Assembly: GCA_002104895.1 (NCBI GenBank)
Contig: MCFG01000095.1
Span: forward strand, 130,001-150,000
DNA length: 20,000 nt
Reading direction: 5' to 3'
Source of the DNA: Anaeromyces robustus
Taxonomy: Eukaryota; Neocallimastigomycota; Neocallimastigomycetes; Neocallimastigales; Neocallimastigaceae
Made by a program: the position numbers and the translations under genes. Position 1 is the stretch's first letter, and each line of letters opens with the position of its first letter. Under the pieces are notes generated by a model. That model saw only the letters and a program-made list of their open reading frames with translations. It did not search any database and had not been told where the DNA came from. Positions 14,426 to 14,456 of the stretch are shown here, in pieces.

Positions 14426-14456
14426 CTAATAAAACTTCAATAATATATGATGAAGT
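14426..14456 (-). other. Frameshift junction joining two ankyrin frames
   Basis: The upstream frame stops at TAG 14428-14426. The downstream frame is open from just after TGA 14459-14457. In this 31-base overlap the first frame reads HHILLKFY and the second reads IIEVLLGVSVKQEF. Adding one T to the T4 run of the sense strand (plus-strand AAAA at 14431-14434) makes HHILLKFLLGVSVKQEF and one frame of 5757 bases, exactly 1919 codons. No intron explains it: between 14436 and 14777 the sense strand has no GT at all, so no standard donor exists. No good slippery heptamer for programmed -1 shifting was seen either. Confidence 0.75.

Follow-up and report, generated by a model that had tools for sequence, protein, structure and literature searches.

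On the minus strand of the DNA analysed here, a window of 20,000 nucleotides from Anaeromyces robustus (C765:130001-150000; GC content 10 to 28% per kilobase), two long open reading frames overlap in a -1 relation (Table 1). This arrangement raises the question of whether they are two genes or one gene with a broken frame and, if the latter, what broke it. An earlier note on the same letters had read them as one ankyrin gene split by a one-base change in a run of four T residues, and had offered a homopolymer sequencing error, a fresh inactivating mutation, or an unusual -1 recoding site as the cause. Its description of the frames (1352 and 522 codons, 31 bases of overlap including the stop) is accurate, and so is its sum of 1919 codons from 18484 to 12729 with one base added (5756 bases plus one). 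Sequence comparisons within the genome (70,169,043 bases in 769 contigs) lead us to a reading to which we assign a probability of roughly 0.9: a long ankyrin gene was duplicated, the frame was kept, and the copy in the window was then cut by a 16-nt deletion and is probably now a pseudogene or a truncated allele.

Table 1. Features of the split ankyrin gene, in positions of the window.
Feature	Position	Strand	Remarks
Upstream frame, ankyrin-repeat gene	14426..18484	-	1352 codons; ATG at 18484, TAG at 14428-14426; Pfam ankyrin models above cut-off
Downstream frame, same ankyrin-repeat gene	12729..14456	-	575 codons open before the stop; first ATG at 14297 (522 codons from there); Pfam ankyrin models above cut-off
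Overlap of both open frames	14426..14456	-	28 bases without and 31 with the stop codon; no canonical -1 slippery heptamer
Site of 16 nt present in C360 and absent from the window copy	14448..14449	-	Frame-shifting; from the alignment to C360
Duplicated unit, about 7 kb	12338..19385	-	90% identity with C360:13389-20412; compared flanks not shared

Both halves of the putative gene score above the curated cut-offs of the Pfam models Ank, Ank_2, Ank_3, Ank_4, and Ank_5. For Ank_2 the scores are 53.3 and 69.3 bits against a cut-off of 27.3, which places both halves among ankyrin-repeat sequences. The gene thus resembles known ankyrin-repeat proteins in that each half matches all five models, but differs from them in being very long and asparagine-rich, with divergent repeats. 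A DNA search within the genome returned a single further long match, at C360:14269-20063 and 93% identical; the other matches listed were at most 250 bases long. This second copy is the same gene over its whole length, and it is read in one continuous frame that starts with an ATG at 14246, stops at 20038, and encodes 1930 residues. In the coding alignment, 5434 of 5669 aligned bases (95.9%) are identical; for the downstream half of the window gene, protein identity with the C360 product is 94%. The C360 protein matches the downstream frame from its third residue onward, so that the open codons ahead of the ATG at 14297 belong to the same protein, as had been supposed. The two copies probably do not represent an allelic haplotig: among the 40 longest matches listed, C360:1-50000 and C765:110001-180000 have in common just the 7-kb unit and weak matches of no more than about 1.1 kb (65-74% identity), which we take for AT-rich simple sequence.

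More distant paralogues tell the same story. From the paralogue loci, 41 open frames with a length of 150 codons or more were compared with the C360 protein. Alignments of seven frames were inspected. Three distinct genes, on C31, C223, and C769, align in a single frame across the junction (residue 1338 of the C360 protein); in the other four the alignment starts beyond it. The three crossing alignments extend past the junction by about 12 to 27 residues on its upstream side, with 28-31% identity overall. At six places, L007, L016, L018, L024, L026, and L029 (on C239, C31, C748, C195, C36, and C167, respectively), parts of both halves are matched in one frame, a count to be read with the reservation that ankyrin repeats can match each other loosely. 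The other paralogue frames match one half alone; the loci are represented by segments of 3 to 5 kb, in which an absent half is uninformative. Because the 1930-residue duplicate is intact and three distant paralogues run across the junction, the two frames are, on sequence comparison, parts of one ankyrin gene, and the split that the earlier note had claimed is borne out.

The break itself has a different nature from the one proposed. Neither the T run nor the adjacent bases differ between the window copy and C360; instead, the window copy lacks 16 nt that the duplicate holds, about 14 bases ahead of the T run in the sense direction. The gap can be placed at four positions equally well, which corresponds to a microhomology of 3 nt. 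A single substitution separates the copies in the 40 bases to each side of the gap, which include the T run. In the C769 and C223 paralogues there is no gap at the residues missing from the window copy, and in the C31 alignment the gaps at those residues lie on the C360 side. For these reasons the 16-nt loss appears to be the derived rather than the ancestral state, a polarity that rests on few residues.

The other differences in length between the copies follow the reading frame. With one MAFFT alignment per region, 13 indels were counted between the coding sequences, of 3, 3, 3, 3, 6, 9, 12, 12, 16, 24, 30, 45, and 45 nt. Apart from the 16-nt one, all 12, which range from 3 to 45 nt, are multiples of three. 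In the non-coding flanks of the unit, by contrast, 16 of 24 indels are out of frame (9/14 upstream and 7/10 downstream; Fisher p about 0.0007 for coding against flank). This pattern shows that both copies kept their frame for most of the time since the duplication. One of the longer coding indels is a 45-nt stretch near the gene start (window 18418-18462) that is absent from C360. The protein shows a 15-residue near-repeat there, and the stretch is perhaps an in-frame tandem duplication.

Substitutions are distributed unevenly along the gene. By Nei-Gojobori counts, dN/dS between the window copy and C360 is 0.63 over 1880 codons, a value from two copies that cannot assign the changes to branches. 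Upstream of the junction the ratio is 0.92 (1309 codons) and downstream it is 0.28 (569 codons), and the underlying counts differ with a Fisher p of about 0.00015 (half counts rounded). The C-terminal part is therefore the more conserved one between the copies, and it is this part that the deletion would remove from the product. Along the N-terminal part (window 14456-18484 against C360:14246-18257), three of the initial four blocks of 200 codons have a dN/dS above 1.7, although with small counts. The N-terminal ankyrin part may be subject to relaxed or diversifying evolution.

Several other explanations of the split have to be weighed against a deletion. A one-base sequencing error in the T4 run has arithmetic on its side, as one extra base there yields the 1919-codon frame. 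However, the run is of equal length in both copies, the 40 bases after the gap are likewise the same in the intact copy, and what distinguishes the copies is the 16-nt gap before the run, so that hardly any likelihood is left for such an error. A guess of this kind can thus be overturned once an intragenomic duplicate is available for comparison. A programmed -1 ribosomal frameshift would suit the overlap and the -1 relation of the second frame. Nevertheless, a canonical 0-frame X XXY YYZ heptamer is absent from both the overlap and the preceding 30 nt, and the split is not conserved in the duplicate or the three junction-crossing paralogues, all of which are in one frame and need no shift. 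We regard programmed frameshifting as extremely improbable. Among the three causes that had been put forward, the inactivating mutation fits, albeit as a deletion of 16 nt and not as a one-base change, while the homopolymer error and recoding do not. The accompanying statement that a standard intron cannot repair the frame was too strong. With donors up to 700 nt before the stop of the first frame, acceptors up to 600 nt after it, and introns of at least 30 nt, 26 GT-AG pairs join the frames, from donors reading GTTATC, GTACTT, GTATTT, or GTTTTA. Each of these candidates would cut out 368 to 1145 nt. Since the removed sequence is mostly or wholly kept as coding in C360, an intron is unneeded, and we rejected it.

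The missing bases might also be an artefact of assembly or consensus, that is, 16 nt present in the organism and lost from the consensus of this copy. The fragmentation of the genome into 769 contigs and the existence of a 93% identical copy, which can trouble an assembler, lend this some plausibility. On the other hand, the 16 absent nt are mixed in sequence and do not form a homopolymer, and mixing with the C360 copy would add these bases, not remove them. Furthermore, the pair is the sole case of split adjoining frames among 29 open frames of 250 codons or more in 120 kb of C360 and C765; with just one such pair, the assembly is not full of such splits. An assembly error is accordingly unlikely. 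Gene fission would make the halves two working shorter ankyrin proteins, caught just after the event, with the second starting at the ATG at 14297 or another start. The low dN/dS of the downstream half between the copies and the lack of a second frame break agree with this idea, but the constraint is common to the intact copy and to the time before the deletion, and the match to the C360 protein continues on either side of the ATG at 14297. Fission is very unlikely as a result; if it were true, the intact duplicate would serve as a built-in control.

Duplication followed by a recent deletion thus remains our preferred reading. Barring an assembly error, the sequence comparison shows both the duplication and the 16-nt loss. 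A long, apparently intronless ankyrin-repeat gene gave rise, in a block of about 7 kb, to a copy elsewhere in the genome, and both copies then held their frame for most of the time since. The window copy subsequently lost 16 nt, probably through microhomology-mediated end joining or replication slippage, an origin suggested by the 3 nt of microhomology at the gap. The frame shift would bring in a TAG within about 20 bases, the protein would end at 1352 residues, and about 590 C-terminal residues, an ankyrin part, would be lost. The absence of a second frame break in the window copy suggests that the deletion is recent. Function would presumably be carried by the intact C360 duplicate. Small deletions are a common cause of breakage in duplicated genes, and the window copy carries such a frame-breaking lesion, a 16-nt loss set against an intact paralogue, as is found in duplicated pseudogenes. 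It resembles young duplicate pseudogenes in general in that a small deletion breaks the frame and an intact paralogue remains, but differs from them in having one lesion alone. Most likely, the window copy is a young pseudogene or a truncated allele. That it no longer works we infer from its sequence; the deletion may be polymorphic, or a truncated protein may retain function.

The deletion explains why a gene finder would call two ankyrin genes at this place, and it has little import beyond annotation. The whole genome has at least 247 Ank_2 matches (150 candidates scored of 3307), a number of which fall in open frames 1000 to 4875 residues long. Giant predicted ankyrin genes thus form a very large family in this genome, and the gene pair could be a small case study of how such a family turns over by duplication and loss. 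A passage of PMC8106346 mentions, for A. robustus and N. californiae, ankyrin proteins next to genes for polyketide synthases.

Other features of the genome and the window were recorded alongside. The dockerin/CBM_10 model (PF02013) has at least 150 matches (150 scored of 683 candidates), and none of 14 control genomes, those named being bacteria, was matched. Such dockerins are typical of the anaerobic gut fungi (Neocallimastigomycota), and their abundance here, taken together with the very low GC content, indicates a fungus of this group. According to a passage of PMC12341934, each of seven anaerobic gut fungi has 234 to 632 dockerin proteins. Within the window, a minus-strand frame of 747 codons (5125-7368) is rich in Thr, Asn, Glu, and Met-Asn repeats and lies in the part with the highest GC content; it has no Pfam match at E 0.01. 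On the plus strand, three frames occupy 327-3880, with an F-box match in 327-1973 followed by leucine-rich-looking sequence, and they probably form one F-box/LRR gene with introns.
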